This document shows positions 11,959-64,000 of a stretch of DNA of 64,000 nucleotides, piece by piece. The DNA is from Cinnamomum chago (Eukaryota > Streptophyta > Magnoliopsida > Laurales > Lauraceae). The notes under the pieces are model-generated. The model searched no databases. It saw nothing but the letters and a program-made list of their open reading frames with translations, and was not told where the DNA came from. Made by a program: the position numbers and the translations under genes. The DNA lies in assembly GCA_038049695.1 (NCBI GenBank), contig CP142452.1, forward strand, positions 67,895,501 to 67,959,500, given 5' to 3'. Every line of letters begins with the position of its first letter. The stretch's first letter is position 1.

Positions 11959-12089
11959 AAAATAATAAAAACATCATAACTATGCAATCACATGATTAAA
12001 ATTGAAATAATTAAAAACATTCACCATAAATTAGGATATTAAGGAAAAAAAAATTGGCCAAAGGAAAGTTAGAACATCAAGTTCACAAC

Positions 12090-33705: not shown

Positions 33706-33760
33706 TGCTAAACTGCGCCTAAATCTCCCTGCTCTCATCTCTGCCATGCGGTGCTCTTCT

Positions 33761-33770
33761 TATATATAAA
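33761..33770 (-). promoter_or_regulatory. Candidate TATA box of TPK
   Basis: Minus strand TTTATATATA lies 56-65 bases before the chosen start codon at 33705, the right place for a core promoter with a short 5' UTR. Confidence 0.6.
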
Positions 33771-33779
33771 TAAAGAGAA

Positions 33780-33932
33780 GGGAGAGGATTCATTGACCAG
33801 AAGATGGCGTGGTTTGGTTTGTTTGGATACAATTGAGATTAGTCATATAGAAATTTAGAAAATGGAGAGGATTCATTGACCAGTTTGGTTTGCTTTGGTT
33901 TGTTTTGGTACAATTGAGATTAGTCATGTTTT
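33780..33932. repeat. Tandem repeat upstream of TPK
   Basis: GGAGAGGATTCATTGACCAG ... TTTGGTTTG ... TACAATTGAGATTAGTCAT occurs twice (about 33780-33851 and 33862-33930), just upstream of the TATA box, so it duplicates part of the proximal promoter. Confidence 0.8.
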
Positions 33933-34754
33933 GTTTGAAAGGTAAAAGCTTTGGCGGTGGGTGTTAGTGGGATCGGTTTTAAGACTCCCACCTGTCTGTT
34001 TTTTGAGTCGGATTCGCATCCACCTGTGTCGCATTTGTGATTTTAAAGCAAGAGATTTGTGAATCTCACTACTGCAGGCTCTGGATTTGGTAACTTATCA
34101 TTTATATTATAATAACCAGTGGAGCCCTGCACGTGCATTGCACGTGTAAGGTACGTACTCTTTTAGTATAATAATCTAAAAAAATAAAGTCACTGAAAAA
34201 CTCAATATTAACTATCCCAATAGAGAATGACTATGTAACAAATTAAGTAATTTACAATCACTCATTGTTCTTATGAAATTTAGTAAAAGCTTTAATAGAA
34301 AAAAGTAAGAAGAAGATTGAATACCAAGAAATATGGAAGAAACTAATTTTAAAAAAAAGAGTTGAAAACCAACATTTTCTGGCCATACATGATTAGGCAA
34401 AACACTCACCAATTTCAATATAGATCGATAGTCCGGCCTATTTCTTATTAAAATTTGTCTAAAACCTAGTGTTAAATACATACCAAATTCAATAAAACAA
34501 AATACTAACCAACCAAAACAATATCCAACTCATAGCTTTAAATGAATCAACAACAAATTACAAGGATTCTAAGCAATCATTGGCATTCTCATCTCTTCCT
34601 CTGACAAGAAATTGTGTCTTTACAAGCATTGGGATCAAAGTTGAAAGTTTCTACACATGAAAATCTCAACTGAAATTTCTCATTTGAGTTCTTACAGCGA
34701 ATGAACAAATTCTTCAAACACAACCCTTTTCATCATCATTTGAGCTAAGCATTT
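33933..34754. other. Intergenic sequence
   Basis: AT-rich. A CACGTGCATTGCACGTG inverted repeat at about 34131-34147 follows ATTATAATAACCAGTGGAGCC, which resembles the 5' end of some plant Helitrons; no matching 3' end was found. Nothing else seen. Confidence 0.45.
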
Positions 34755-35400
34755 CATTGAAATATAATAATACTAAGTGGGGCCTACAGATGTGTAGTTC
34801 TCTTTGATTATATATATAATATAATAATACGAAGTGGGGCCTATAGATGTGTAGATGTAGAGTAAAAGCATGACAAGTTCTTCTACTAAGTGGGGCCCAT
34901 AGATGTGTAGTTCTCGTTTTATTATATATATCTAATATAATAATACTAAGTGGGGCATACAGATATTATAATAATACTAAGTGGGGCCCACATATGTGTA
35001 GAGAAAAAGCATGACAAGTTCTTCTACTAAGTAGTATAATATAATAATACTAAGTAGGGCCCACAGATGTGTAGTTCTCTTGTATTATATATATATAATA
35101 TAATAATACTAAGTGGGGCCCACAGATGTCTAGATGTAGAGAAAAAGTATGACAAGTTTTGTTACTAAGTGGGGCCCACAGACATGTAGTTCTCTTTTAT
35201 TATATATATAATATAATATAATAATACTAAGTGAGGCCCACAGATGTGTAGAGAAAAAGCATGACAAGTTCTTCTTTTTTATTGGGGCCCACATATGTGT
35301 AGTTCTCTTTTATTTTATATATATAATATCATAATACTAAGTGGGGCCCACAGATGTGTAGAGAAAAAGCATAACACTTTTTTCTCTTTTACAATAAGGG
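34755..35400. repeat. Tandem array 1: AAGTGGGGCCCACAGATGTGTAG plus AT-rich linker
   Basis: About nine units of AATACTAAGTGGGGCCCACA followed by GATGTGTAG, then either a TTCTCTTTTATTATATATA or an AGAAAAAGCATGACAAG linker. The GC core GTGGGGCCCAC is the complement of the core of array 2. Confidence 0.85.
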
Positions 35401-35454
35401 CATAGATATTATATGATTATTATTATAATATAATAATAATATATTATTATATTA

Positions 35455-37860
35455 TATTATATTATAATATTTGGGGGGGTGCCCACAAAAGTGTAGTGAA
35501 AAAGTATGCAACTTCTCTTCGGTGCTATGTGGACATACTAGGGGGATCGGGCCACAATTCGGTCCCCCCAGTATGTCCAAGTGGAATTTTTCTTTATAAT
35601 AAGGGTATATATATAGATTTTATATTATTATTATTATTATATAATATACTATTATATTATAATATTTGGGGGTGGGCCCCACGAAGGTGTACTGAAAAGT
35701 ATGTAATTTCTCCTCTTTTATAATAGTATATAAGATATAAGATAAGATAAGATAAAATTGTAGATAGATTATAATATCTGGGGGTGGGCCCCACAAAGGT
35801 GTAATGAAAAAGTTTGTAATTTCTCATAATAATATATTATTATACTATTTGGGGGCGGGCCCCATAATGGTGTAGTGAAAAAGTTTGCATTATAATATTT
35901 GGGATTGGGCCCCATAAAGGTGTAGTGAAAAAGTTTATAATTTCTCATAATAATATATTATTATATTATATTATAATATTTGGGGGTGGGCCCCACAATG
36001 GTGTAGTGAAAAGCAGTTTGCAACTCTTCTTCTTTTATAATAGTAGTAGTAGATAGTAGATATTTGGAGGTGGGCCCCACAATGGTGTAGTGAAAAAGTT
36101 TGCATTATAATATTTTAGGGTGGGCCCCACAAAGGTGTAGTGAAAAAATTTGTAATTTCTCAAAATAATATATTATTATATTATATTATAATATTTGGGA
36201 GTGGGCCCCACAATGGTGTAATAAAAAAGTTTACAATTTCTCATAATAATATATTATTATATTGTATTATAATATTTGGGGGTGGGCTCCCACAATGGTG
36301 TAGTGAAAAAAGTTTGCAACTTTCCCTCTTTTATAATAGTCATAGATCGTAGATTATAGATAGTAGATATTTGGGGGTGGGCCCTACAATGGTGTAGTGA
36401 AAAAGTTTGCATTATAATATTTTGGGGTGAGCCCCACAAAGGCGTAGTGAAAAATTTTACAATTTCTCAAAATAATATATTATTATATTATATTATAATA
36501 TTTGGAGGTGGGCCCCACAATGGTGTAGTGAAAAAGTTTTCATTATAATATTTTGGAGTGCGCCCCACAAAGGTGTAATGAAAAATTTTACAATTTCTCA
36601 AAATAATATATTATTATATTATATTATAATATTTGGGGGTAGGCCCTACAATGGTATAGTGAAAAAGTTTGTATGAGATAGATAGATAATAAGGGTATAG
36701 ATATTATATTATTATTATTATTATATATATGATTATATTTTATTATAATATTTTGGGTGGGCCCCACAATGGTGTGGTGAAAAATCCATACAACATTGCC
36801 TCTTTTATAATAGTATATAGTATAGTATATAGATATATAGATATAGATTTTGGAGTAGGCCCTACAAAGGTGTAGTGAAAAATTTTACAATTTCTCAAAA
36901 TAATATATTATTATATTATATTATAATATTTGGGGGTGGGCCCTACAATGGTATAGTGAAAAAGTTTGTATGAGATAGATAGATAATAAGGGTATAGATA
37001 TTATATTATTATTATTATTATATATGATTATATTTTATTTAATATTTTTGGTGGGCCCCACAGTGGTGTGGTGAAAAATCCATACAACATTGCCTCTTTT
37101 TTAATATTTTTGGTGGGCCCCACAGTGGTGTGGTGAAAAATCCATACAACATTGCCTCTTTTATAATAGTATAGATATAGATATATATAGATATAGATAT
37201 AGATATAGATTATATTTTATTATAATATTTTGGGTGGGCCCCACAATGGTGTGGTGAAAAATCCATACAACATTGCCTCTTTTATAATAGTAATAATAAT
37301 AGTATAGTATATAGATATATAGATATAGATTTTGGAGTAGGCCCTACAAAGGTGTAGTGAAAAATTTTACAATTTCTCAAAATAATATATTATTATATTA
37401 TATTATAATATTTGGGGGTAGGCCCTACAATGGTATAGTGAAAAAGTTTGTATGAGATAGATAGATAATAAGGGTATAGATATTATATTATTATTATTAT
37501 TATATATGATTATATTTTATTTAATATTTTGGGTGGGCCCCACAGTGGTGTGGTGAAAAATCCATACAACATTGCCTCTTTTATAATAGTATAGATATAG
37601 ATATAGATATAGATATAGATATAGATATAGATTTTGGAGTGGGCCTCACAAAGGTGTAGTGAAAAATTTTACAATTTCTCAAAATAATATATTATTATAT
37701 TTATAATATTTGGGGGTGGGCCCTACAATGGTATAGTGAAAAAGTTTATATATATGATTAAATTTTATTATAATATTTTGGGTGGGCCCCACAGTGGTGT
37801 GGTGAAAAATCCATACAAGATTGCCTCTTTTATAATAGTAGATAGTAGATAGTAGATAGA
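35455..37860. repeat. Tandem array 2: GTGGGCCCCACAAWGGTGTAGTGAAAAA with AT-palindrome linkers
   Basis: More than 25 units of TTTGGGGGTGGGCCCCACA followed by AAGGTGTAGTGAAAAA, joined by ATAATATATTATTATATTAT linkers or ATAGATATAGAT tracts. In the right half units form a higher-order block (recurring near 36845, 37326 and 37628). No coding potential. Confidence 0.9.
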
Positions 37861-38475
37861 TGTCGAGTCAGGTCGAAATTGGTTGGTGACATTTCTAACC
37901 CGTCTAGTAATAGTACGAGTTGTTGGGGGAACGCATTCTCCCACCAATAAGCATGTCAAACGGGCCTTGGCCTGGGCTGGAGCAGGGCGGGCCGTGCAGT
38001 GCTTCCGTGACATGGCGTGCCTTTTTCTTTTTTCTATTTTTTTTCTTTTTAGTATAAAAATTAAAAATTAGAGTACAAGCACGGAGAATGACAAAGATAT
38101 TTAAGTAGTTTGGTCAAATTCGACCTACTCCACTAAGAAGGGAGAACCATTTAGATCTTAACTTCTTAAAGGTTTCTAAATAGGATTACCTTTAAAACAT
38201 TACAATCTTTTTTAGAAAATAAAAATAATAAAATAATAAAAATTTTACATATTTACAAAATACAATGAAGGAAAAAGGAAAAAAATCATATGGTAGTCCA
38301 TTAATGTATTCTGCTGGATCAAAATCTTCCGTTGATGTCAACTCTTGCTTCCTCTGATTTGCCAAATACCAGTCTCGTAGTCCACTAAAAATTACAATCT
38401 TTTTTAGAAAATAAAAATAAAAAAGAATGACAAACTTATATATTTACAAATTACAATGAAGGAAAAAGAAAAAAA
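37861..38475. other. Intergenic; includes 192-bp tandem duplication at 38201-38575
   Basis: The block starting TACAATCTTTTTTAGAAAAT at 38201 repeats at 38393. Both copies carry TGTATTCTGCTGGATCA and GTTGATGTCAACTCTTGC..., the end of the hAT transposase gene, so the last codons of that gene were duplicated. Confidence 0.75.
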
Positions 38476-39820
38476 TCAGATGCGTAGTCCACTAATGTAT
38501 TCTGCTGGATCATAAGCTTCCATTGATGTCAACTCTTGCTTCCTCTTATTTGTCAAATATCAGTCTCGTAGGCAAACACAACACTCCACCATTTTTTCAG
38601 TTATATTTGTTTTGCTGGCATCCACTACACGTCTACCTGCACTAAAAGCTTATTCTAATGCTACAAAAGACATTAGAATAGTCAATAGATCACGAGCCAT
38701 GGTGGCCAACACCAGGTAAACGCTTTATTATTTCTTTCACCAGGCTAAAAGGTTAAAACTTGATGCATCCTACACCCATATTACACCGATGTCAAGATAC
38801 GATGATAACTTTGTCACTGTGTTACTTAAACTTGAACTGGATGCCATGCCCGTGGACAAGGAAGAATACCACACATCCCACTCACCAACACTTATTTGAT
38901 GGAATTTTGAATGGCCCATACGAAGCCCAGTTGTACCCATTTGCTCACAATAAAATTGAAAAAGTGCTTGTAAATTTACCCTTATATTTGAAAAAATATT
39001 AAATCTATATAATTCATATTTTTATTTATTTCATCAATAAAAAACTGTACACCACTTAATTTTAACTTAGGATCAAATACAGCAGCTAAAGAAAATGTCA
39101 TTGGAGCCTCTTTCCAATATTTATTAAAATTTTCTTCCATGTTTCTAATAGTGCTGCTAAGTAAAAAATGATCTCTAAATCTATTGAGTTGTAAAGTAAT
39201 TTTAAAAAGCTTCATTAAATGTGAGATAATATATCCCGGAAAAAAATAATGTTGAAGTATAAAAAGCTTCTAATAAATCTCTTATATGTGCACATAACTC
39301 CCAATGTTTCATCACTAATCATCAAATCTTGTGCATGAAAAGCACAAAATTCATTCAAAACATTTTTCTGGTCAAGTTCCCTGTTTAACAAATCATACAT
39401 AGAATTTCATCTATGTTCTACCTCTTCAGGTATTTTAATAGCTGATATGTCTTGCCTCGCACATATTTGGGCATACAATTGTCTTCTCTGTGCAGAACAG
39501 AAAATAAATCTAGCAATGTCTTTAATACCATCTATGTAACTTACGATATGCTTTAAGCCAATCTTTGCAATGAGATTTAAAATGTGATATACACATCTAT
39601 TTTGGAAGATAGAGTTATCTATCAAAGTTGTAAGTGACATCTGCATTCTCGTTAATTCAATAGCCATTGTATTATTACTAACATTATCTAAAGTTATAGG
39701 TTTAACTTTTTCCTTAATATTATATTCATCTAGTTTTTCCAAAATAAATGTACTTATTATAGTGCCATTGTGTGGCCATTCAAGACGGCTAAAACTAATT
39801 ATATGTTTATTAATAATTCA
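38476..39820 (-). pseudogene. hAT-family transposase, C-terminal half, with stops, cut at MULE border
   Basis: Minus strand from 39818: HIISFSRLEWPHNGTIIST, then PITLDNVSNNTMAI and RCVYHILNLIAKIGL, typical of plant BED-type hAT transposases. Further on come FNKYWKEAPMTFSLAAVFDP (TYPE domain start) and the dimerisation block AFSAGRRVVDASKTNITEKM, ending MEAYDPAEYISGLRI at 38476. Stops replace Ser in the SAFSAGRRV block and Trp in LRDWYLTNK, and frames shift. The N-terminal half with the BED finger and first catalytic Asp is absent. The frame runs to the very edge of the MULE, as if the MULE had inserted into it. Confidence 0.85.
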
Positions 39821-39960
39821 AGGGGTTTTAACGGGAAAAACCCCCGTACATGGGCATTTCATTGATTGAGACCCAATAAATCCTGGCAGACAGAAGTGGT
39901 CCCATGGGCCACTTGCGTTTTTTTTTAAGGTTTTTTTTGTAATAGTCGATATCGACTATC
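39821..39960 (+). repeat. Left terminal inverted repeat of the MULE
   Basis: About 140 bp pairing imperfectly with 51774-51913. Contains the palindrome AGTCGATATCGACT at 39944-39957. Confidence 0.9.
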
Positions 39961-40137
39961 CCGTCGTTATACAAAAGGGTAAAAAGCCCCTTTTTCTCAC
40001 CGTCTTCTTCACCTTTTCATTTTTTCACTCTGTCTTCATCACCTTTTCCCTTTCATCCCCTCAACGGTGGTCCCAATCGGTGGTCCCAGAGAAAGATTCG
40101 CGCCAACTCTTCAAACATTCTCCATAGTTTGACGCAC
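39961..40137 (+). promoter_or_regulatory. Likely promoter and 5' UTR of the PMD-Ulp1 gene
   Basis: Pyrimidine-rich sequence (CACCTTTTC, CTGTCTTCATCACC) between the left TIR and a possible start codon at 40138. Inferred from position only. Confidence 0.35.
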
Positions 40138-43100
40138 ATGGAGGTATTTTATTTTTCTTCTTGTTTTTGTGTCCTAAATTTAGAAGGGAGTTAGCGTTTT
40201 TTGATGGTTTTGATCGTTTAGAATGGAAAGACCTGCAATCTTCTTTACATTTTCTAGTTTACCCATTTAGAAGGGATTATTCAACTATGGGCATTGCCGT
40301 TTGCATACGTTATTGTATCATCCTGTTTATGACATTAACTAAGTTACATGTTCTTGGCAAATGTACAGGGTTTTCTGAAATCATAGTAAATTGGTTTTGA
40401 AGAACGATAATAATTTCATGAAATTACCGTCAAGATCCCTAACAACAAACTAGAAGTGAATCCCCTCTCTTTGGTCTGAGGATGAAATTTTGCTTGTTTG
40501 ATTCATAGGATTAATGGATTTTTTTTCCAGTGATTTATCCTCTTTTAAGAAGCAAATGTAGCAAGTGCAGTTTACTCTTCTAAAGAAACTGCTAATTGGA
40601 CACAATCACATTCATCTAAACCACATATCAGTTCTCTTAACATGCAGTTGATATGTGATATTTTCTCATCAGGATGCTTGGGCTACGAATGCATGATTGA
40701 GGGTCCTATCTCGTAGTGGGTCGTCACTCTAGTATAGATATTTCTTTAGCTTGTTACTCTCTTTTGCTAGTTTGAATCAGCAAGCCACTTCCCACGTAGC
40801 AGTTGGTTGTAACTGTAGGAGTATAGTGGAGTAGATCATTTAAGAAAGTGGGTTATCTATGTACAGAGGCAGACCCAGGATTTTAATTTAGGTGGGGCGG
40901 AACTTTTTGCTAGAATTTTTTCACATCAACAATAACAAAAGAAATAATACATTCCATGTAAATAGACGCAAAATTTTTTCATCAGTCCAAAGTGGAAAAA
41001 TAAAAGATGTGCTATAGAACTGAGAACATCACATATTCACATGCATCTCCTTATCTCATTTACCCAAATAAAATCAAATCAAATAAAAAAAAATCACAAC
41101 TAAAAGAAGAAACAAAAGCATAAATGTGAATGTGATCGAGTCAGTCACAATCAAATCACCATTTTCCCTAATTCCCTCCATAAATGTGATCAAATCAGTC
41201 AGTGAACGACATCCCTACACTTTGATTTCCCTAACACTTTCATGCATGTTAAAAGCATGAGAGCTGATTGATTCCCCCACCTTCATTTTTACATTTTCCC
41301 TCTTTTTTTTTCCCTCCAATTTCATGTTATTTTGGCACCTTCTAACCACACCAAAACTCTCATCCAACCAACAAATTGATTTGTCTGAAAAATCCCAAAA
41401 CTCTATAACAGATTATGATTTCATGTCCATTTCAGATAATCTGTTTAGCTTCCTCCTCTTAGCAGCTGGAGTGCTATGAGAACTTGCACATGACCCAACA
41501 GTTGTATCATCACTTTTATAGGTTAGGCATGAAGCATCCAACACCCCAATGGGGCTCTGTGGCACAGATATGACTGACCCATGAGCTCCTTTAACTGGAC
41601 CACTACTTACCAATATCATCTCTTGGATCAGTTCATAACACTTAATTACTCTCCCCTGCAATCCAAAACAGAACACACACTTCATCAATTGTGTTATTCA
41701 AGCCTGTTTTTGTAACAGGGGAAAAAAGAGAAAAAGAAAAAGAGAAGAAAGGGAAATTCCCTCTAGGTTCTACCCCACTTTTTTACCTTTTATACATGAA
41801 TGCAAGAAGTTAGTGCCTTGTTGAAATCCACTGTTTGGGCTTCTACTGATACAGATATTGCCACTACTGCAGCAACCTCACAAGGCTTGAATTCCAGAAA
41901 TCAACCCCTGCATTGTGTTTCTCTTCAGAGTTATAATTCAAAGAATTCAATTCAATTTCACACGACAAGGAATGCATACGCACTATACACACACACACAC
42001 ACAAAAAAAAAAAACTTTTATTTTGGTAAATACACAAATATAAACTTGAGAAAAAGAAAAGCATACCTCTGATTGTGCCTAAGATCAGTTCAACAGATCG
42101 GAGAAGTGATGATTTTGGTGGAGGTTTGTCATCATTAATCTTCTGAAGAAAGTGATCTATAAAGGAAAATGGAGTCACAGCTTGCATCCTCCATTTCAAA
42201 GTACTCAGGACCAGAAGCTCCATTCTCAGTATAGTCCTAGATTCAAAGACAAATTTTGATTCCCCAACCTGATAAAGCACACATCATTTCAACAATCAGA
42301 AAACAAAAATGGAAAAAACCAATGCATTTTCTGTGAAACAGGCTTCCAACCATCCCCAAACCAAATCAGACAATTGCATCTGATAACATTAAATCCAATG
42401 TCACTTTACCTGTAAATCCAGAGACAGGGGTACTTCAGTTTCCTCCATCTTGGCAGCCAGAGACAAGCAGGCCACAGATAACAGCTGCATCATCCAGGGC
42501 TTACCTTGCTAGAAACAGATTAAGGCAGAAACAGGCAAGAGAGAATCAATGATAGATCCTGAATCATTCCAAAAACTCAAGGAGAAATGCAAAATCATTT
42601 TTGTGAAATGCATGTTGGGTTCTTCTCCACAACTTACAGAAAGTTCACAGGCTGAAAGGAATCTGTCCAAGTAATTTACAGATAAGTATGCACTCAGGGG
42701 TCCAAATCTGTAGTAGGCATGAACCTGCTCAACCAAATGCAAACAAAATAATGAGAAGGACAAAATGAACCCAAAACCTAGACCAGAGAACTTATAAAAA
42801 GAAATGAAAAACCCAGAACTAAGTGCACAAAAGCTTAAATCGTATCAATAATTTTTTGTTAAACTAAAAGGAATGCAAAACTATTGGATGGCTCCAGTGA
42901 TAATTAATCCAGATAGGACCATACATTCCCTATACTTTTCTGTGATAGTCCAAATTTAGTTGCTACAACAAAATGGGCTGCATTGGTAAATCTGTTAACC
43001 TGTCTATTGGTCTACTGCAACTTTTTATCGTTGCCAACCTATCTAGAGTTCAAGAGGGGGATTATCCATTGTTAATTTTTTTTTTTTTGTATTTGACCTG

Positions 43101-46100
43101 AACCTCTTATGTAGTGAAATCAATGATCTTCAATGCTGCCAAGTCCTGATAAATTGTCTAAAAAACTCGTTTAAATTTTGCAGGTCAATGAAGAGAAACC
43201 CGTTGAAACTCCAAGCATACTCCTCTTTAACCAAAACAATCATATATCGGAGGGTATCGGTCACGGAGAGGTATACCAAAAACATAATTCAAGTTTGTAT
43301 TTACAATTGAAATTTCTTAGTTTTGTTCTATTGTTCATGGAGTCACCTCAATAATTGTTGTTTTTACAAGGAACTCGGACGGATGAGATGCATCCCAACA
43401 AACCCCGATAAAGATATATGGGTGCTTACAGATGTTCAAAAGCAATATGTACGGCAAACAGGTCTACACCACTTGGCCGACATAGATCGTATGGTCATAG
43501 ACCATGCCTTAATAACAGCTTTGGTTGAGCGGTGGCGCCCAGAAACAAATTCATTCCATTTTCCATCCGGGGAAGCAACTATAACACTCGAAGACGTTGC
43601 TTATATCTATGGCCTGCCAGTCGATGGCCCGGTGGTAACCGGACGAACTTTCTCCGGTAGATTTGTAGAACCGGTTTGTGAAGAGTTGCTTGGGATCACG
43701 CCACAGAAGAAGCTAGACTATGTTGGCATAACAATAAAATTTAAGTGGCTTGAAGACAACTTCAAACCCTCCGCCTGGCAGGATAAGAAAAAGAAGAAAA
43801 CCAATGATGCCGAGATAAGAGCCACCCGAGCATATTTGTTCTTTTTGGTGGCCGGGCAGATCTTCACACAGACATCTGGTGCGAGGGGGCCTGCTTTTCT
43901 ACTTGAATTGTTTAAAGATTTCAAGCCTTATGCATGGGCCCCCGCATGCCTTGCAAATCTTTATAGAATGTTGGCAAAGGCAACTTGGTGGGGCCATGAG
44001 ACGAAGGAAGCTGAAGGAAAGGAAAAAAATCAACATATAAATGACAGCAAGTCCTGCAGGACACCCACAGGGCCTTTGCAGTTGCTACAGGTGGATAATC
44101 CTCAAACTTAACATTTTTGGGTGCATTATTTTAATGTTAACTAACAGTTGCATTTTTATGTTTTCCCTCGCAGATATGGGCTTACTCGAGAATGTCTCTT
44201 GGACGGATCCCTCGGCAAGATCCTAGTTGGAAAAAAGACATACAATTTCCACTTTTCAAGACATGGCATAAGAGGTTGGTGGATCACCCCCAGGCCCTCG
44301 CAACGGTCAAAGAAGTCAGGCACCAACTAAACAGCTTGCCGGCTGATGGGGTAAATACACATGTGTCATCCAAGTAAATTTTATGATATTTTTACTTAGG
44401 TTACCTGATGTATATGTTTTAATGTCTTCTTATATGTGCATATATATAGTTCACTTGGCAGCCATATTCTGGGTATGGCAAAAAGTTCAAGACGAGCGTA
44501 CCCAAAGGGGATCGCGATCTGTTTTCGTCATCAACCGTCCTAGTATGGTACTGGATTGTTGAGCGGCATAATACATGGCGAGTCATGAAGCAGTTTGGAC
44601 TCAAGCAATTGGTCCCCCCTCCTTTCAATATGCCATACTTCCGTGGAGAACGTATAGAGAGGATGGTGATTGATTATAGCTCGCGTATGGATGAAGAGGT
44701 AACAGCACTGTGGGCTGCAAGAAAGCAGCTGGGTTTACGCGGAGAGAAGTGCACCCAGCCGGTTCATTCAGAAGAGTACCTGCTATGGTATGGTGCCAAC
44801 ACAGTCCGACACATTGGCAAGGTTGAGCACGTGGAGAGGCCCGAGGCAGAAGCCCCCGCTCAGCAGGCTGAGCCATCTGTCCCACAAAAATATGTAAGTA
44901 TTGAATGCTAATTAGTCCGGACGATCATTTATATTTCTATCTATCGTAGTAACTTTACTTATTCTGGTTAATTGCTTGTCCGCTGTTTTCAGGTTGATGA
45001 ACTTGTTGCTCGCTTAGAGCGGTCGTGTGATCGGGCAGACAGGAGGAAAAAAAACGTGTCCAAACTTGCGGAGTCGATTCGGAAAAAACTAAAGACATTT
45101 AAGGCAGCTATTGGGACAGCATTTGTGCACTTCTCTATGGAAGACTGCAATAGCTCACAATCCGATGAGGATGCAGAAAAGGTAAACTGTCCCACCCTCC
45201 ATTAAATTTTTTCTTGTGCAATCTGACTCTGTCATTGAGTTAAATTCTATAATGTGCAATCTGACTATGTTCTTTCTGTTTTCAATCAGACAAGCAGTGT
45301 TCCCTCTCAAACTGGTCCATCTCACACTGTTTTCCATCAGACAAGCATTGTTCCCTCTCAACCTGGTCCATCTCACACTGTTTTCCATCAGACAAGCAGC
45401 AAGGTTGGAGTCTCTCACACGAGAGTAAAGAAAGCTGCTATTAAAAGTCCAAGGGCAAAAAGGTTAAAAAAGGCGGGACCAGTACGTCCCGATCATTCAC
45501 CAAGGAATGAACGTAAAGCAGGCTTACCACCAACCGAAGAAGTGCTCTCAACCCCCCCAATAGCCAGGACACTGTTTGACACTCCTGTGACAGTTACTAG
45601 TGGTTCCGCAATTGTTGCTGCAGCACCTATGGCTACCGTAGTCTCTTTGATTTGGAGAATCAAGCGCTTGCCCCGTATGCGTAAAGTGCCCGTAAAGTTC
45701 TCTGATTATTCTCATTCTATGGTGCATTCGGGCTATGTATTAAATGATCAGGAGCAATTCTTTCTTAGGGGTTTCAAGGAATACTATGAGACAAAGTAAG
45801 CACAATAATATTTCTCCCATTACTTTCAATTTGTATCCATCTTCATTAATATCTTGTGCTCAAGTGTTTTTTATTAACAAACATCTATTCCATGTAGAGA
45901 GGATGAACTGGCCAGTATTTGTACCATGATATCCAGCAACGACTTAAAGAAAGCACTGGACGAGGGAACTTGGCTGGACACCAATCTAATGTATTATTAC
46001 TTTGAGATCATGAGAGAAGGATGTCCAACCGCTTTCATCGCCGACCCAAGCATATCTGTAAGTCTGCGCTGAACTGTCCTATCTTAGTTACCATAGGCTT

Positions 46101-46755
46101 ATGAGTCATCTTTATTCGTTAACCATTTATATTCTGGTGACATTACTATTCGCAGAGTTGGTGGCAGGATGGATCTGATGCCAGTGTTGAAGCTGCCTTC
46201 GGTAAGCACGGCCACAGAGTCTGGGAAGCAAGGGAGGCACATACACTTGTGTTTGTCGTCCACTACAGGAACCATTTCACGCTCGTTGTGGGATACGTTG
46301 ATGAAAAAAGGTGGGAATTCTATAACAGTTTGGCTGGTGATCGTTTGACACAGAATAAAGCGGAACAGTTTGTAAGTATGGTTTGGGATCCTATATTGCA
46401 ATCCGAGTACATTGTTTCAGGACATCACTTATGTAACAGCTACCCCCCTTGTGCAATTTCTCATTTTTTGCAGATCAGCTGGTTAAACAAGATGTATATG
46501 CATTTTGGATGGACGGATCCATTTTTATGGACGATCGTGTTCAAGGAAGACATTCCTCATCAAAACAATGGTAATGACTGCGGGGTCTTCGCTGTGGCAT
46601 TCGCAGAGCATTGTGTTCACCGTCGTCCTATCACATTTACCCAAAACGATATCCCTTATTTCCGCAGCAAAATTGTCATTGAGTTATTCAAGAGAAGTTG
46701 GCAAGTGAATGCTAATAGGTTGAATCTTCCTGAGCTGTTGAACCTACCGGCTTGA
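40138..46755 (+). CDS. Plant mobile domain / Ulp1-like cysteine protease fusion (MULE cargo)
   Basis: Exons (all GT-AG, phases close): 43184-43270, 43371-44090, 44174-44350, 44450-44893, 44993-45181, 45290-45795, 45898-46057, 46156-46371, 46474-46755; 926 codons. A two-codon first exon ATGGAG|GT at 40138-40143 would join in frame and give the start, but this is inferred. The N-terminal half is a plant mobile domain ([68 protein letters not shown]). Then a charged coiled segment, a 17-residue tandem repeat, and a C48 (Ulp1) peptidase: His in [11 protein letters not shown], Asn where Asp is usual in EFYNSL, Gln and Cys in [11 protein letters not shown]. Ulp1 enzymes cleave SUMO; the substrate of the MULE-borne type is not known. 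Intron 1 would contain the antisense cyclin fragment. Confidence 0.85.
40144..41412. other. MULE internal DNA, non-coding
   Basis: No recognisable gene. A GGCAGACCCAGGATTTTAAT motif near 40867 is a dispersed-repeat-like sequence. The part next to 41412 is probably the captured 3' flank of the cyclin gene. Confidence 0.5.
41413..42724 (-). pseudogene. Captured D-type cyclin gene fragment (exons 2 to end) inside the MULE
   Basis: Five exons with intact GT-AG introns on the minus strand: 42638-42724, 42410-42508, 42067-42268, 41796-41907, 41413-41655. They encode the cyclin box from [59 protein letters not shown], then [19 protein letters not shown] and AKRRKLN near the C-terminus, as in plant CYCD proteins. 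The first exon with the Rb-binding LxCxE region and the cyclin-box start is absent. One base is missing in exon 41796-41907 (GATTTCTGG for an expected GATTTYCTGG), shifting the frame after GVDF. Retained introns show capture from genomic DNA, not from mRNA. It is antisense to the PMD-Ulp1 gene. Confidence 0.92.
42725..43183. other. MULE DNA between the cyclin fragment and PMD-Ulp1 exon 2
   Basis: Probably begins with captured cyclin intron 1 (up to about 42840) and then MULE intron sequence with a T-run near 43077-43090 before the TTTTGCAG acceptor at 43183. No exon recognised. Confidence 0.5.
45290..45391 (+). repeat. 51-bp coding tandem repeat in the PMD-Ulp1 linker
   Basis: Encodes [17 protein letters not shown] then [17 protein letters not shown], followed by a partial third unit (TSSK). 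In frame, so it lengthens the linker between the mobile domain and the protease. Confidence 0.9.
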
Positions 46756-47165
46756 TGTGATTTTATTAGTTTAATAGAAGTTTTGTGAAGGTATTGGGCA
46801 GTAGACGGAGAGGCCATTACAAATACTTTTTGTATGAATTTGTGGAACTTGTAAGAAGCACTGGTTGTGGAACTCATATGGTTCTTCTTGTATGATTTTT
46901 TGATTTTTACATAATTTGAAATTGAATGGGTATGGAACATGTGTTTATTGAATGTGGTTGTGATATTGTGGTTTGTGCAGAATGTGTGCTTGAGTATATA
47001 AGATTGATTATGACCATGATTTTCATATTGTGGACCTCCATTTCACATAATTTGAAATTGAATGGAACATGTGTTTATTGAAATGTGGTTGTGATATGGT
47101 ATGCAGGATGTGTGCTTGAATATTGATTATGTAAATTGAATCACAATAAAAAAAAAAAAAACACA
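46756..47165. other. MULE 3' flank of the PMD-Ulp1 gene, with a duplicated block
   Basis: ACATAATTTGAAATTGAATGG ... GGAACATGTGTTTATTGAA ... GTGGTTGTGATAT occurs at about 46910-46965 and again at about 47046-47100. Likely 3' UTR and flank. Confidence 0.65.
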
Positions 47166-47600
47166 GTAATAGTCGATATCGACTATTACTATAGTCGATC
47201 TCGACTATTTAACTGAAACATAAAAAACACAGTCATAGTCGATATCGACTATCACTATAGTCGATATCGACTATTTAACTGAAACATGAAAAACACAGTC
47301 ATAGTCGATATCGACTATAGTAATAGTCGATATCGACTATTTAACTGAAACATGAAAAACACAGTCATAGTCGATATCGATTATCACTATAGTCGCTATC
47401 GACTATTTAACTGGAACATGAAAAACACAGTCATAGTCGATATCGACTATAGTAGTAGTCGATATCGACTATTTAACTGAAACATGAAAAACACAGTCAT
47501 AGTCGATATCGACTATTTAACTGAAACATAAAAAACACAGTCATAGTCGATATCGACTATTACTATAGTCGATATCGACTATTTAACTGACTATAAGCTG
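47166..47600. repeat. Array of 13 palindromes, core AGTCGATATCGACT
   Basis: Cores start at 47171, 47193, 47237, 47259, 47303, 47324, 47369, 47391, 47434, 47457, 47501, 47544 and 47567; ten are exact, three have one change. They come in pairs about 22 bp apart inside a 66-bp unit that also has TTTAACTGAAACATGAAAA and ACACAGTCAT. One unit has a single palindrome. The full palindrome ATAGTCGATATCGACTAT is 18 bp. The array lies between the convergent 3' ends of the two MULE genes. Confidence 0.95.
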
Positions 47601-47915
47601 AAAAAACAGTCATAGTCACTGGAACTTAGAAAAACAGTCATATGATGAAACAAAACAACTACGTTTTTTTGGCGAATATTTAGCGAATAATATCTCAATA
47701 AGGCTGGAAAAAATTAAACCATTTGCATCCCCAAGAAATTAAGAGAGTTTTCAACATATATTAACCCCAAAAAGGGAGTGCATCCTTACAAAAAAAAAAA
47801 GACATGTGCAATACAACACAATTATGCCCTTCCAAAAAATGCTTCAACAAAATGTACAAGGCCCTTCACGGCAACGTCTTCTATCACATTTATACAAAAT
47901 ACTAACACCGTCCCT
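47601..47915. other. MULE internal DNA, nothing recognised
   Basis: AT-rich; two decayed half-copies of the palindrome unit (CAGTCATAGTCAC, CAGTCATATGATG) at the start, nothing further. Confidence 0.5.
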
Positions 47916-48249
47916 TGACTCTTGCATTCCCCTTCCAAAAAATCCCCATCAGTAGACTATACACTGTCCAGATTGTTGTTATACAAAATACCAACACCAA
48001 CCAAAAAGGAGTTCACGTTGACTCTTGCATTCCCCTTCCATCTTCAATGCTTCAGTAGACTATACACTGTCCAGATTGCTGTTATACAAAATACCAACAC
48101 CAACAAAAAAGGAGTTCACGTTGACTCTTGCATTCCCCTTCCATCTTCAATGCTTCAGTAGACTATACACTGTCCAGATTGGTGTTATACAAAATACCAA
48201 CACCAACAGAAAAGGAGTTCACGTTGACTCTTGCATTCCCCTTCCATCT
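47916..48249. repeat. 103-bp tandem repeat downstream of the transposase gene
   Basis: About three and a quarter units of a 103-bp block with TTGACTCTTGCATTCCCCTT, AGTAGACTATACACTGTCCA and ATACAAAATACCAACACC. It starts right after the transposase stop codon (minus strand), so it probably forms the 3' UTR. Confidence 0.9.
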
Positions 48250-50835
48250 TCAAATTTGCGCAGGTGGATTGCGGCAACTTTGTCGATTATGCCCCCTCTC
48301 CTTACAGTTACCACAGGTGACTACCTTCCGTTGGCGGCCACAATCTTCGGACCGAATCCTATTCTTCTTTGGCCGCCCTGGCTGTTTAGTAGCTCGTGGT
48401 GGCAAAACTCGTTCATCAGATGTGTGCTCCCATTGTTTACTGTCTCGGGTAGCATGCAACACTTCACTATATGTCGTACGATACACACTTGATAGGTACC
48501 AATGTTCGCAGAATTCATATGGATCATAGTTTCGAACTCGCATTGAAGCCAATGCATGAGAACACGGGATCCCCAAAATCTCCCATTTTCGACATGTGCA
48601 AGTCTTGCGTTCAAGATCGACGACGTCCACATACTCCGCAGATTGTACCTGAAACTCGACTAGACCAGCCACACGAACATGCAATCGTCGCGCTTCTTCA
48701 CTTTCTTTTTCCAAAACTTTCTCCGCATAAGGTGTTAGACGGCTTGTAATTGCTTCCGACTCAAGATGACGCTTCTGGTAAAATTCCATTAGCTTGGCCC
48801 GTATTTCCTCGACCTGTTTTGTAATAGGAAGGACCCTTGTATCCTTTAAGAGGCCATTTGTGCATTCTGCAGCGTTACTAGTGAGCATGTCATACCGACG
48901 TCCTTCTACATGTGCATTAGCCCAACGTTGCCTTCCAATTGAATCAATGTAAGTGAATGCCTCTTGGCTGACTGCCCGAATATCGGTCATATATGCATCA
49001 TACTCAAACGGCCTGTTTGCTTTGGCAGCACGCCAAAATTTCATAACAATTGCCGCATCACTGAAAGTTACCCTAATATTCTCGGCAATGTGACGGCAAC
49101 AATAACAATGCCTTGCGGAGGGTATGGTGTTCAAGAGCGCCGGAATAAGACCCTTTTGACGGTCCGACACAATAGTCAAATTATTAGGCTCACCCAGCGC
49201 TATATGTAGGTTTGCAAGGAACCACTCCCAACTATCACGTCGTTCTGCTTCCGCGAAGGCAAAAGCGATGGGGAGAAGCTTATGATTGGCATCGTGTGTA
49301 ACAGCAACGAGCAAGACACCGGGATACTTCCCTCGGAGATGTGCCCCATCTATAGCAATCATTGGTCTGCACGTACTAATGAAAGACCTTAGACAAACTC
49401 CGAATGCCCAAAAAAATCTTCTGAAACGGTCCTCAGATGTGGTGTCTATGTTCGTTATTGTGCCTGGATTGGTCCTCTGCAGTTCAATACAGTAACTAGG
49501 CAGCATTTGAAATGACTCTTCGTAAGAGCCTCGCACTGCACGCAGGGCTATCTCCTTTGCTACATGTGCCTTCCTATAACTAATAGTTGTCCCATATTCC
49601 ATTTGGTAGTCGTTCATGATCTCTTTTGGTTTAAGATTGACATTTTGTCGGACTCTATCCATGATGAACTCCGAAATTAGCAATGCTGACGCCTGTTTAT
49701 GTGCCATTCCCATCATTGGCTTCGAGCATCTATGGACAGGATTATACGTACGCACTTTGAATTGTGGTCCTGATTCCACGATAGAGGCATGAATGCGCCA
49801 AGGGCAATTCTGATCTTTACAGCATGCTGTCACCTTGTACATGTTTGTCTTCAAGTGCTTCAGAGTAAAGTTTCCATAAATTGCGAACTTAGCCACAGTC
49901 TTCCGGAATGTGTCACGATCAGGGAATTCACGGCCAACCCACATTTCACGTGCTGAATTGTTTCCAATGTCTACATTCGATTTTTCAGGTACCATGTTGT
50001 CGATGAAATTAACACCTGAATGTTCACTTGAAGGACATGCATTGTTGATTGGATTAGCCCCGGCAACGTTGCTTTTGTCCGAGCCCATCACAATCACTGG
50101 AATTTGTCCGGTGAAAATATTTTCATCAAAATAATTCTCATCACCATACTCTGCCCCATCCTCTATATTATCAACATCTATTTCTTGACCTAAGGTATGA
50201 TGCGGACTTGTAATGTTTCGAACAATCGAAAAATGCATGTCATTATCTTCTTGGAGATCAACTGTAGGAAGCTCTGGAACGACTGTCCTATCTTGCACTT
50301 CTTTTCCCTTGCAATTTATCAATACACTCTTCGATTTTCGAAGTAAACATTGATGCTTTTCATTCCTCTGAAACCTACAGTGCATCAACATATAAGGGAT
50401 TGGGATTAATATTTGATAAAGTATAATCCAAGAATACAACAAATTGACAAAGTATAATTTAGAATACAACAAATTGACATACCCATATTGTTCTCTTCCT
50501 TTACATTGTCCATTGTTCGGACTCTTAGAAACATATAAGTAGATCCCATTTGTATCCTGACCCGATGCTTTGATCATTCTGTTCACATCATTATCATCTT
50601 CAATGCTAGCCAGTGAAAATGCACGTCCATTGTGATGAAGGTATTGTATGCTTAAACTTTTAGTAGATGAATCCCAATTAGATGCTTTAATTGCTTCGCC
50701 AACCAATGACCCATATGTTATGCCAGTTGATAAATACCTCATCTTCTGCTTTCCTCCGTTATAGACGGGACGCATAATATCAAATTCAAAGTTTCCATCG
50801 TAGTGGAATATGATTAGAACCTCGCAATCTGACAT
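48250..50835 (-). CDS. MURA-type MULE transposase
   Basis: Open over 861 codons; removal of a GTATGT...TGTAG intron at 50375-50482 (108 bp, in frame) would give 825 residues and a better joined sequence. Order in the unspliced frame: PB1-like domain 1-108; FAR1/MuDR DNA-binding domain about 298-375 (CCKDQNCPWRIHAS, HRC); catalytic domain with D496 (IAIDGAHLRG), D558 (IVSDRQKG) and a likely E611 (PFEYDAY), with CRHIAENI between; SWIM zinc finger C746, C748, C758, H760; AT-hook-like PGRPKKNR; CCHC knuckle C841, C844, H849, C854. It binds the element ends and cuts and joins them. No disabling change was seen. The start ATG opens the PB1 domain. Confidence 0.93.
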   Translation of the reverse strand: MSDCEVLIIFHYDGNFEFDIMRPVYNGGKQKMRYLSTGITYGSLVGEAIKASNWDSSTKSLSIQYLHHNGRAFSLASIEDDNDVNRMIKASGQDTNGIYLYVSKSPNNGQCKGREQYGYVNLLYSKLYFVNLLYSWIILYQILIPIPYMLMHCRFQRNEKHQCLLRKSKSVLINCKGKEVQDRTVVPELPTVDLQEDNDMHFSIVRNITSPHHTLGQEIDVDNIEDGAEYGDENYFDENIFTGQIPVIVMGSDKSNVAGANPINNACPSSEHSGVNFIDNMVPEKSNVDIGNNSAREMWVGREFPDRDTFRKTVAKFAIYGNFTLKHLKTNMYKVTACCKDQNCPWRIHASIVESGPQFKVRTYNPVHRCSKPMMGMAHKQASALLISEFIMDRVRQNVNLKPKEIMNDYQMEYGTTISYRKAHVAKEIALRAVRGSYEESFQMLPSYCIELQRTNPGTITNIDTTSEDRFRRFFWAFGVCLRSFISTCRPMIAIDGAHLRGKYPGVLLVAVTHDANHKLLPIAFAFAEAERRDSWEWFLANLHIALGEPNNLTIVSDRQKGLIPALLNTIPSARHCYCCRHIAENIRVTFSDAAIVMKFWRAAKANRPFEYDAYMTDIRAVSQEAFTYIDSIGRQRWANAHVEGRRYDMLTSNAAECTNGLLKDTRVLPITKQVEEIRAKLMEFYQKRHLESEAITSRLTPYAEKVLEKESEEARRLHVRVAGLVEFQVQSAEYVDVVDLERKTCTCRKWEILGIPCSHALASMRVRNYDPYEFCEHWYLSSVYRTTYSEVLHATRDSKQWEHTSDERVLPPRATKQPGRPKKNRIRSEDCGRQRKVVTCGNCKERGHNRQSCRNPPAQI

Positions 50836-51773
50836 GCTGTTTATAAATATAAAATTAGTTTATAATAGTGATAGGAATGAAAGGTAAATTGTATACATAA
50901 ACAGTGCCCATGGTGAAAGGCCAAATGTATGTTTAAAGTAAATGCATTGTGATATTATAAGGGTGTACTAATTGTATTGTTAAACAATGCCATACAGAGA
51001 TTATGCGCATTTTAAACCCTCAACCAAAAAGGGATTATGAAAACTAAATAAGATAGTGTAACTGTTGGAGCATATCCACCTTTTATAACAATTTCATGGG
51101 ACAAGGCAAATGTGCTGTTACAATATCTAAAACTTGTAAAAGGAAATAGATGAAAATGAATTAACATGGGGCATAAATGTTATGTTTTAGTTTGGGTTAG
51201 GATAAATAATACAGTGAAGAAGAGAAGTGATTTCTTTATTGTCAAATACATGTAAATTTAGAACCCTAAACCCAAAAACGTATGTACAAATTAAAGATGG
51301 TAGTGTCACTTTAGGAGCAAATATCCACCGTTCAAAACTCTAGATGCACTTGGGTGCCATTTTCTGGGATAGTAAAAAAATTGCACATTTAAAACCCTAA
51401 ACCCAAAAACGTATGGAAAATCAAAGATGTATGTGTTTTTTTCGGAGCAAATATCCACCGTTCACAACTCTAGATGCACTTGGGTGCCATCTTCTTGGAC
51501 AGAGCAAGATCGTTCATTACTTGTCTAGGGCTGGTAACATATAAAAGGAAGAATATGAATCAACAAGTTGGGTGAATGAAAAGTTTTGGGGAAACTATCA
51601 AAACTAATAATAAAGATTCAAGTGTGTACCTACCTCTTAAAGGAGTGCAACCACCACCCTTAATGGAGTGAATAAAGAGCTGCAACTCTTGTTCATCGCC
51701 AGGCTTGCAGACGTGAGACGAACGATGAAAAGGGGAAAACAAGATGCGAAACTGGGTATGTAACTTATGAATG
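50836..51773 (-). promoter_or_regulatory. Transposase 5' region with a 131-bp repeat
   Basis: Two good copies of a unit with ACCCTAAACCCAAAAACGTATG and GGAGCAAATATCCACCGTTC (about 51258 and 51389, period 131) and a diverged third near 51010. At about 51615-51700 the minus strand looks like a 5' UTR exon ending AAGAG|GTAGGT. These should include the transposase promoter. Confidence 0.55.
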
Positions 51774-51913
51774 AGCGTCGATATCGACTATAGCGCTAAA
51801 AGACAAAAAAAAAAAGTGAAACGTAACTTTAGGGCCACTTCTGTCTGTAAGATTTTATTGGGTCTAAATTCATTAATAGTATGTTTAAAGGGGTTTTTCC
51901 CGTTAAAACCCCT
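51774..51913 (-). repeat. Right terminal inverted repeat of the MULE
   Basis: Pairs with 39821-39960. Palindrome core GTCGATATCGAC at 51777-51788, 125 bases from the end, mirrors the left one. Confidence 0.9.
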
Positions 51914-54900
51914 ACATTAAAACTATAAATAAGATCCAAGGCACTGAAATTATTTAACCAAAAAGATGTGACGTTCAGGCCTAAATTTTAGTTGGTCGGA
52001 AGGTCCTACCTTGGCAATCTAGGCCTATGGATTTGAGGCTCAAAAGAAATTATACATTTATTGCCCAAGAACTTAGGTCCAGAAATAGTGTTCGGTTAAC
52101 TTTATTGTCTACCGCAGTTTGAATTGAAGGGGCATTAGAGAATAGAGAGACAATCATTTTTTATAAGTCAATCAAGTAAGTGTTTTTTCCCTCAGTAACT
52201 AGTGATGAGTCTCACTGCAGTAGTTATATGCAACCAAGGAAGCAGGCATGACATTCATTCAAGCAGGTATAACATACACAATACTTCTCTTACAAGCTTA
52301 GGTGGTTGTGCTCCCCATTGTTATTTGTTGTTGCAATATTCTCACAAATCTCATGGTCTGGATTATGTCGTCATGGGATAATACTGAGCTTGAGATAAAT
52401 CTCATTAAGATATGGTAAATAGAGAAATATTCTCCTACGAGCTACTACTTATGCAGTCCAGCTCTGTGGGGCACACTTGGGCACACCTTTAATCAGTGAA
52501 GGCCCTTTCACACCTTCATCCCCCGCATGATCTTGTACCAGACTCAATTTCACTGTCATCAAACATTTATCCACAATTGGATTGAATCTCAAAGAAATCT
52601 ATGGTGAAAAGACCACTAAACATTAAGGCTATTAAATCAAGGGTTAGGATTATCTCATGGGGCTTTTTTTCTGTTGGACCTTCTCCATGAGGAGACCTTT
52701 CCATGTACCCCGCCCCACTAATAAGAAGGCATCTTGAGTGAGTCCCACAAGCTGGACTGCATATTGCTTATATGCAGTCTACTTGTAGGAGAAAATTGCC
52801 CATGGTAAATATACAAAAATATCATGATACTCTCCATTCTGGCTATGCATTGAAAACGTAGTTGTCAATTTCGGGCCGCACCTCGGTTTGGCTCCAACAT
52901 AAATGTTTCAGTCAATTTGGAGTTTCAGGGATATATTTTCGAGTTTCATTTCAACAAATATTTTAAAAAAAATTTGTGTAGATATAAATTATTTACATTT
53001 AATTTATTCTACTAAATCAATGATGCAACATGTTATTTCTACATGCCAAGTGAACAATTTATTAGCTATGTGTGTGTGACAATGTGAAGTTAAACATGCA
53101 TTCTTAAATCTCAACTCATAATATTTGTACTTTGCATACACTTGCTTTGGATATATTTAATAATAAAATATTCAAAAAGAGATCATTAGTTTTTTTGAAG
53201 GAAAAATTCAGCCAAAATGGACTGAAATGGCTGACATGCGGAAATCGACCGAAATGGAATGAAATCCGGGACAAAATGACATGTGTAGATCAGTTCGACC
53301 AGTGGTCCGAACTGATTTTTTTTTTTTTATGGCAGGTCTGAGCTGAAATTGTTTAACCATATTGGCCGAACCAAAACCGGAAATGACAACTATGATTGAA
53401 AGCATTGTGATAGTATCAGGATTAAATCAGTTGAGGTTTTCACACAGAAGTATTGGGTAATTCAGTTCGGTCAGTGGTCTGAACTGAAATTGTTGACCAT
53501 TTTGGCCAAACCAAACCAAAATTGACAACTATGATTGAAAACATTGCAATAGTATCAAAATTAAATCAGTTGAGGTTTTCATGCAGAAGTATTGGGATGG
53601 TTTAAAACTATCACCAATGTCTGTCACATAGAGATTGGAGAATAGCTGCATCCCCACATCAACAACCAAGAGGAAGTTATCCCACTATGGCATCTACAAA
53701 ACTGCTGGAGATTTTGTTTGTTGGGGATTTCCTCAATTAAACTTTTTCTAGCTCTCAAATGTTTTCATATAAGCTTACCGTATAGGTCTTTAACTGTCCC
53801 CACATTCATTAATATGGCTTTAACTCTATTTATCCATGCCACCACATGTTTGAGTAAATAAGAAGATACCCTATTGTAAAGAATCTTAAAAATGAGGATA
53901 TCCACTATCGGACATGGCACTTTGATGGATTACTGACATATTCTTCTAGTAGATTTTCTTTGTACATGGTGCGTTGGCCAAAACGTAAGTTGATCCTGAC
54001 ACTCTCCCCTAGCACAAGAATGCCTTGACCATCACACTAGTTGCGTGGTTGGCCTTCTAGTGTTCTAGTGCTAATTTAAACATCGTTATGGAGTTGATAA
54101 AATGTTATTGTTCTCTTTCATCTTTTGAAATATAATAAAAAGTAAAAACTGTTGACATCATTAGTTGATTATCTCGAGTAAGATTAGTACATAGATCTTT
54201 TTACTTACTTTTGGAAATTGCAAATGAGTTTTCAATTAGGGTTATTAATGATGCTGCGATAAGTTCCCAAATAAGGGGCCTTTCTGTTTAATTTATGAAG
54301 GGAAAAATTGTATTTGCATGTATCAGCCCAAGAGGATAATGCATTTGGGTTTAAGCATTGGCAGAGCCAGGATATTCTTGTAGGGGGCAACCGATGGTCC
54401 ACCGATAATGTTAATAACTTATTTTCTCTCCTATATAAGAGCAAAAGAAAAATACTCATAAAAGTAGTCAGGAACCCAAGCAACTGCCCAAACGCGCTCG
54501 TTGAAATCCACCAACCTATTTGGGGATAAAGGAGGATTTTCCTAACGGCAGGTCTTGTGATCGTCTGTTCGGAGATGGTGATGAAGAAGGATTTTACAAA
54601 AAGGGAAGGTCTTGTTATCGTCATCTAGCCAAAGGCCCAATTTAATAAGGACGGTATAATATTGCTCAAAACATTTTTCCTACATTCGTCCATGCATTTT
54701 GTTTAGTGATTCCATAGTTTAATCAACATGACAACTTAAATTGCACATCGATAAGAAATTTACAATTTGAGTTGCACTCGGAGCAGGTATAATCAGGTTT
54801 CATTCCTAGATTTATGTTTTGTTGCAACAAAATGTTTTCTAAAAATTTCAAATGCTTGAATAAGGACGGCAGAAAATAATTCTCCATCCTTTGATTCCAA

Positions 54901-55628
54901 ATTTGACTTTCATAAAAATTGCAGAAAGTGCCTCTACCTCAGAAAATGAAAGCAGTGGAAGATATTAACACAGAACAATGGAAAATCTTTCTCCCCTTTA
55001 AACCATTTTCATTGTCTGTGGCTACATCCAGTTAGATAAAAAAAATAAAAAACAGTGACTAATCCACTGAGGGAAATGGAAACTTAAAAAGAATTTTTTT
55101 TTTATCGGCAACAGTAAAATTTTATTGAAGAAAGAGAAAAAACAACTTAGCACAAAGCAAACAAAAAACTCCCCTCATAATTGTAGGGGTACAGGATAAA
55201 TGTACCAGCCACCAACTACAAAATAGGAGAAACTTAGGAGTTTATTCTCCACACTGTCAGTTTCCACTGTTAGAATGCTTGAAAAGATGTTCATCTCAAA
55301 CTTACTATATATTGAAAAGCTAATATTCCTCACAACAAATAATCATTATTGCACAATCAAGTAAATCTATGTGAAATCTGTGTTAGAAAGGAATATGGTG
55401 GCATTGAGCTAAGTGAAAGTGATCCACAGAAAAATAAAATAGAATAGATAGTAGCTGGCTGGTTGGGACATGGGTGTGTGAGTGGGATGCGTGTGTTCAA
55501 GTTTCCAATATAGGAAAAAAAAAAAAAAATAGATAGTAGATATGTAATGAAGCAAATCTGATAATAGTGATATGACAAATATATCTGTAACTAGGAAAAG
55601 ATTTCTCGAAGATTGGCATGGCACTTAC

Positions 55629-63817: not shown

Positions 63818-64000
63818 CTGCTCTACACACGCGTCTACCATTTCAGATCAAAGAGAAAGAGAATCCTAACCGTTCATCTTGCAGCCGTGGCCCACCACGT
63901 GAACGGCCCGGATCTAGCTCCACGTGGAGGGTCAGACATATTTAAAAAAAAAAAAGAAAGAAAGAAAGAAAGAAAGAAGAAAAGAGAGAAAGCAGTAGAA

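Follow-up and report, generated by a model that had tools for sequence, protein, structure and literature searches.

A MULE between two identical 18.4-kb segments in Cinnamomum chago: a tandem TPK duplication that may stem from one insertion and its repair

How can a single transposable element come to have two unlike flanks? The question is raised by a stretch of 64,000 nucleotides from the genome of Cinnamomum chago (contig CP142452.1, here C2, positions 67895501-67959500; the whole stretch is called the window below), in which a Mutator-like element (MULE) is bordered on the left by the remnant of a hAT transposase gene and on the right by intron 4 of the gene for thiamine pyrophosphokinase (TPK). 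The initial annotation of this DNA had placed the element at the joint of a tandem duplication with a unit of 30,456 bp, that is 18.4 kb plus the MULE, and had explained the unlike flanks by unequal crossing-over between two MULEs. Comparing the window with the genome assembly (1.06 Gb in 14 contigs), we recovered the duplication exactly as described. Its two joints and its outer sites point to another origin, in which one MULE may have been inserted once and a faulty or reopened left side repaired at the cost of a duplicated gene segment.

Within the window, positions 51913-64000 match 21457-33544 with 0 mismatches over 12,088 bp. Reading the genome beyond the window edge extended the match to a tandem direct repeat of 18,364 bp (21457-39820 = 51913-70276), again with 0 mismatches, and together with the 12,091-bp MULE that joins the two copies the repeat unit amounts to the expected 30,456 bp. 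Identity stops at 39821; the final base of the repeat, 39820, is also the last one derived from the hAT ahead of the MULE. No N is present in the 114 kb surrounding the joint, and a 301-base query around the intron-4 site returned just two genomic places. Part of the duplicated segment consists of nested AT-rich tandem repeats, a long complex upstream of TPK (34700-37900) that is base-identical in the two copies; for such fast-changing repeats this would be unusual unless the duplication were very young or an artefact. At substitution rates of 7e-9 to 1.5e-9 per site per year, 0 differences in 18,364 bp correspond to a 95% upper limit on the age of ~12,000 to 54,000 years.

The element at the joint has the good terminal inverted repeats (TIRs) ascribed to it: a 23-bp inverted repeat is perfect at both ends, with imperfect similarity across the 200 bp compared. 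No other match to this 23-bp TIR occurs in the window at ≤3 mismatches (0 in 100 shuffles), and no further MULE end (23 bp, ≤3 edits) was found within 10 kb to the left or 40 kb to the right of the window. TIRs, a mudrA-type transposase and, in its family, a 9-bp target duplication place the element in the MULE class.

Copies of the family were surveyed among the best 40 of 547 candidate places, which comprised the window MULE, 30 other MULE left ends and nine hAT-only places, namely copy 2 of the duplicated segment and eight other hAT copies, which were fetched. Twenty-six of the 30 left ends had a right-end partner among the best 40 of 214 candidates and were examined, 11 of them fetched whole (9.0 to 12.2 kb) and 15 by both ends; the four without a partner were dropped. 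Three pairs among the 26 copies look like mutual duplicates, leaving 23 loci, 22 with exact target duplications. Family elements run from GGGG to CCCC with few variants (one pair starts AGGG). In agreement with the initial annotation, which had called 9-bp target duplications typical of MULEs, an exact one flanks 25 of the 26 other copies, and the remaining copy differs at two of nine positions; the window copy is the sole one of 27 with plainly unlike flanks. The single change that separates it from the nearest of the 11 whole copies is private to it among the copies compared, so that the window MULE is young. It is closest to one subfamily along its full length and shows no switch of relatedness against the 11 whole copies, hence no sign of a hybrid between two subfamilies in this comparison, to which an exchange within the subfamily would be invisible.

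Two further repeats involve members of this family. On C3, two MULEs recur ~261.4 kb away with equal flanks (28.36-28.57 and 28.62-28.83 Mb), and 3,000 of 3,000 sampled flank bases are identical, which may reflect another exact duplication or an assembly fault. On C1, two copies 32-36 kb apart share their flanks (99.377-99.426 Mb), which looks like one more tandem duplication, this time with an entire element inside it.

The flanking 9-mers of the window MULE are ATAATTCAA on the left and TACATTAAA on the right. That they are unlike had been recognized correctly; the letters initially given for them were off by one base, as the family element runs from GGGG to CCCC. The origins assigned to the flanks also hold. 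The right flank lies in the TPK intron between the exons at 25.2 and 20.6 kb, and the hand-spliced protein matches PF04263, PF04265 and TIGR01378. On the left, a stitched read-through of three hAT frames matches PF05699 (2.6e-15) and PF14372 (3.1e-11), and a relative, P0125, continues across the seam site; the longest hAT frame alone gave no significant Pfam match, and a structure search with the hAT frame returned an unrelated best hit (E 1.5).

The right joint is exact, with CCCC followed directly by TACATTAAA, and the same 9-mer stands intact and MULE-free in copy 1. A matrix of target preference, built from the 22 independent exact target duplications of the family and read in percentiles relative to the 9-mers of the window, ranks TACATTAAA very high (Table 1). 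A second TACATTAAA lies 70 bp upstream, at 21387, inside a degenerate local repeat. Judged by these features, the right joint is an ordinary transposition joint. There is no adjacent 9-bp pair at the window MULE; the presumed halves of its target duplication are 30,456 bp apart.

At the left joint, a single A (39821) separates the hAT remnant from GGGG and belongs neither to this hAT nor to the MULE, the copy-2 hAT and 8 of 8 other fetched hAT copies having T in this position. The left joint is therefore unlike an insertion into this hAT. For a MULE inserted at TACATTAAA, the expected last base of the left flank is A, and 19 of the 22 family target duplications end in A; the base at 39821 may thus most simply be the last base of the intron-4 target duplication, or one gained by end joining. 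At most 1 bp is shared at the seam. The hAT sequence around it continues alike in the eight other fetched copies. In copy 2, the hAT at 70276, in the genome beyond the window, is unbroken and runs straight on with no MULE, no MULE footprint and no excision scar, and AATAATTCA is present once. It was here, about 6 kb past the window edge, that a MULE flanked by a matched AATAATTCA had been predicted; the site is empty. The locus combines one seam with little or no homology, as left by end joining, with identical copies, both of which are expected of a repair-made duplication. The features are listed in Table 1.

Table 1. Positions of the duplicated segment, its two joints and the genes and frames discussed (window coordinates)
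Feature	Position	Strand	Evidence or remark
TPK, copy 1, ATG to stop	16020..33705	-	exon markers 33685, 33334, 25227, 20616, 16095; borders by eye
Copy 1 of duplicated segment; from TPK intron 4 (in part) and exons 4-1 through the upstream region and AT-rich tandem repeats to the hAT remnant	21457..39820		= 51913-70276, 0 mismatches
TACATTAAA at the target in copy 1, lacking both a MULE and an adjacent second 9-mer; interpreted as left half of target duplication	21457..21465	+	sequence
hAT transposase remnant, C-terminal part, cut by joint; lower boundary approximate	38560..39820	-	stitched-frame Pfam matches, P0125, other hAT copies
Additional A separating hAT and MULE; interpreted as end-joining mark or last base of left TACATTAAA	39821..39821	+	T in other hAT copies
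MULE at joint, 12,091 bp	39822..51912		perfect 23-bp TIR ends; 1/12,091 positions differ from copy C1_28.4
Plant mobile domain open reading frames of MULE, two open frames	43311..44911	+	PF10536 4.9e-42 and 3.7e-10
Ulp1/C48 peptidase domain open reading frame of MULE	46141..46755	+	PF02902 3e-11
mudrA-type transposase open reading frame of MULE, uninterrupted	48250..50835	-	PF10551 (MULE), PF03108 (DBD_Tnp_Mut), PF04434 (SWIM)
TACATTAAA right flank of MULE; clean transposition joint	51913..51921	+	99.4th percentile of target preference
Copy 2 of segment, cut by window edge; runs to 70276 (C2:67965776)	51913..64000		identity with copy 1
Truncated TPK, copy 2, with exons 2-4 inside the window and exon 1 slightly beyond it, at 64141	55629..64000	-	exon markers

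One ordinary insertion cannot account for the unlike flanks, as the initial annotation had rightly pointed out. From the joints, the empty sites, the identity of the copies and the exact target duplications of the family we infer a break, a copying step and a sister template, in a reading to which we give about an even chance of being correct: a single MULE insertion in TPK intron 4, followed by repair of the left side of the element, in which 18.4 kb was copied from a MULE-free template, probably the sister, before end joining to the MULE. A single MULE would have entered the intron at TACATTAAA on one DNA molecule, with its right end joined normally and its left side either never closed or opened again, at the left TIR or directly beside it. 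From the broken end of the chromosome, ...GATTGATACATTAAA, 18,355 bp would then have been copied rightwards on a MULE-free molecule, most likely the sister chromatid, by interrupted synthesis-dependent or break-induced repair. Copying would have stopped inside the hAT remnant, where the released strand would have been end-joined to the left end of the MULE with one A at the seam. This would leave the MULE between two identical copies and the halves of the target duplication 30,456 bp apart. In a two-break variant with the same sequence product, the broken hAT of a MULE-free sister would have been end-joined directly to the left end of the MULE.

The age of both components may be read along the same lines. 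With 0 mismatches in 18,364 bp, the duplication is probably young, and the single private MULE change agrees with a young insertion, which fits one event. The identity of the copies bears on the template as well: were heterozygosity 0.0005, a stretch of 18,364 bp should contain 9.2 differences (probability of none, 1e-4), and at 0.0001 the probability of none is 0.16, which points to a sister template, provided that the plant is not locally homozygous.

Several points weigh against one insertion followed by repair. The case for a sister template comes solely from the identity of the copies, and zero differences also fit an assembly artefact. The single A at the seam is thin evidence, as it may also have come from untemplated addition, from variation in the hAT or from an error in gap filling. 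The left 9-mer as found, ATAATTCAA, lies at the 95.0th percentile of the family target preference (the hAT 9-mer ending at 39820 at the 92.9th, the unbroken hAT 9-mer at the same place at the 86.0th), so that preference alone cannot rule out an insertion into the hAT. A length of 18.4 kb is long for such copying compared with ~100 bp to 10 kb in Caenorhabditis elegans (PMC8654963; here and below, statements on published work refer to the portions of the cited papers that were accessible). Finally, in a comparison of two rice species, insertions were generally precise and untidiness came from excisions, 8 of 94 of which were clean (PMC4423477); this makes a faulty insertion less likely and favors a left end that was opened again later.

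Somewhat more tentatively, with the balance slightly against it, the reading may be put in a general form: MULE integration by itself would be enough to duplicate a gene-sized segment in tandem in a single step, with one end integrating and the gap at the other being filled from the MULE-free sister over many kb, so that the halves of the target duplication bracket the new copy and mudrA comes to lie in sense orientation downstream of the copied promoter region and four exons of a housekeeping gene.

Among the other explanations, an assembly error survives best, and we regard it as unlikely. The plant would carry an ordinary MULE insertion in TPK intron 4 on one haplotype only, and the assembler would have placed the versions without and with the MULE one after the other. 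Perfect identity over 18,364 bp speaks for such a fault, as does the presence of another exact duplication in the same assembly, that of the C3 MULEs ~261.4 kb apart with their 3,000 of 3,000 identical flank bases; the border between MULE and target would presumably also form a branch point in the assembly graph. However, the 114 kb around the joint hold no N, and two haplotypes would be expected to differ somewhere. The seam itself, from hAT to A plus GGGG, shares at most one base and lies inside a hAT that continues alike in eight other copies. Assemblers normally join sequence by overlaps.

The origin proposed initially, homologous crossing-over of two MULEs, one located in the hAT on one homologue and one in TPK intron 4 on the other, appears improbable. 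The model needs an ordinary MULE in the hAT, in which case hAT sequence should reach GGGG, but an A intervenes, although 25 of the 26 other copies are clean; the deviation is one base only. It also requires that two MULEs inserted 18.4 kb apart with the same orientation, and that the homologues carrying them were identical over 18,364 bp. The steady relatedness along the MULE, with no switch, is a weak argument in the same direction, since exchange within the subfamily would be invisible. With one MULE per homologue, on the other hand, crossing-over yields the observed order with both outer sites empty, and the empty copy-2 hAT taken alone still fits a second homologue that carries the MULE in TPK only. 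The left-flank 9-mer suits the family preference (95.0th percentile), and the same hypothesis has been published for the EPSPS locus of kochia (PMC6808082). Taken together, the untidy left joint, the empty second hAT and the identity over 18,364 bp leave crossing-over between two MULEs disfavored, although none of the three is decisive by itself.

Alternative transposition, in which MULE ends from two sister chromatids, or two ends at two targets, join the hAT and intron 4 through the transposase, seems to us quite doubtful. We formerly preferred its single-element version, with transposition between sister chromatids from the hAT. An enumeration of 40 products, with end-joining models standing outside it, gave five that match the observed order, and two of the five arise in this way. 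Published patterns lend it some plausibility, as citrus MULEs have dissimilar flanks at a 2-Mb deletion (PMC4334395) and the pattern of VANDAL21 elements has been read in these terms (PMC12312487). It has lost ground with the unclean left seam, since joints made by a transposase are expected to be exact and the left one is inexact. The scar or repair trace that the sister-chromatid version predicts at the copy-2 hAT was not seen, although repair from a MULE-free molecule would hide it.

Three further schemes drop out: reversed-ends transposition, which predicts a MULE in the copy-2 hAT and a nearby second end, neither of which was found (the search for the latter covered 10 kb to the left and 40 kb to the right of the window); crossing-over in which one chromosome carries a MULE at each of the two sites, as both copy sites are empty; and, by reasoning, one ordinary insertion with loss of one flank, as no exact duplication ending at the MULE would result.

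The best matches to the TPK protein are from Tasmannia (80% identity), a transcriptome entry (92% over 86% of the query) and Persea (84%), with further plants at ≤80%. Markers of exons 5 and 6 occur in copy 1 only; the copy-2 gene is oriented towards the leftover intron and, beyond it, the right end of the MULE, where mudrA has the same direction and its ATG lies 1,077 bp inside. With the truncated TPK copy (51913-55629) and mudrA (48250-50835) in one orientation, the upstream region and exons of a housekeeping gene now stand upstream of a transposase gene. The mudrA-type frame has 869 codons from stop to stop and shares 64% identity over 99% with a Cinnamomum protein (P0001), its best match from a named source, which is without one 36-residue stretch. 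The palindromic motif TAGTCGATATCGAC occurs 121-122 bp inside both MULE ends (39943-39958 and 51775-51790) and again in an array at 47170-47581, with 13 sites (≤1 mismatch), mostly two per 66 bp, between convergent gene regions; the array is a candidate transposase-binding array. Copy-1 TPK contains a 1.6-kb tandem duplication of its own (17338-18947 and 18959-20568, 98% identical), which repeats the later part of exon 5 and so provides a spare exon piece. Farther left, at 8296-11973 on the minus strand, lie frames of a Copia-type retrotransposon (RVT_2, integrase, gag pre-integrase).

Non-allelic crossing-over has been called the prevailing model for tandem direct duplications (PMC3744419). 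Crossing-over between transposons requires two insertions and should recur; the present locus suggests that a single insertion can be enough if it is faulty or reopened. We recognized no published case of one MULE insertion with the halves of its target duplication split by a tandem duplication, in a search that most subscription literature lay outside. Tandem duplications made by repair have been published, as has a gene duplication with a MULE-related element; what would be new, if true, is that one insertion gave one duplication.

Known systems resemble the locus in part. In C. elegans helq-1 mutants, end joining of aborted homologous repair yields tandem duplications, so that copying past a break and subsequent end joining give a direct repeat much as proposed here; unlike here, the events are spontaneous in a repair mutant and have no transposon at the seam (PMC8654963). 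In maize, duplications made by reversed Ac ends also stop exactly at a transposon end and have a middle element with unlike flanks, but the model predicts that the outer copy holds an element whose flanks match and that a second end lies nearby, neither of which was found here, and Ac is a hAT element rather than a MULE (PMC3744419); Ac duplications have also been described in connection with re-replication (PMC4270019). MULEs take part in rearrangements in the case of VANDAL21 (PMC12312487) and of CitMULE in citrus, where the element likewise has unlike 9-bp flanks at a rearrangement; that rearrangement is a 2-Mb deletion with an inverted element and two joints that both read as target sites, in contrast to the duplication with one untidy joint described here (PMC4334395).

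A close parallel is EPSPS in Kochia scoparia, likewise a plant tandem gene duplication bordered by a large MULE-related element, there 16 kb long and bearing FHY3/FAR1, for which the authors propose crossing-over between two insertions (PMC6808082). In kochia the element stands at both outer borders and the repeat typically has three to eight copies, at most 11 (PMC6808082), whereas here a single MULE lies only between two copies, the outer sites are empty and one joint is untidy. One insertion followed by repair would leave a signature that is searchable at base level, namely the halves of a target duplication parted by one duplicated segment, one clean and one end-joined joint, and empty outer sites, and the same signature could be sought at loci such as kochia EPSPS.

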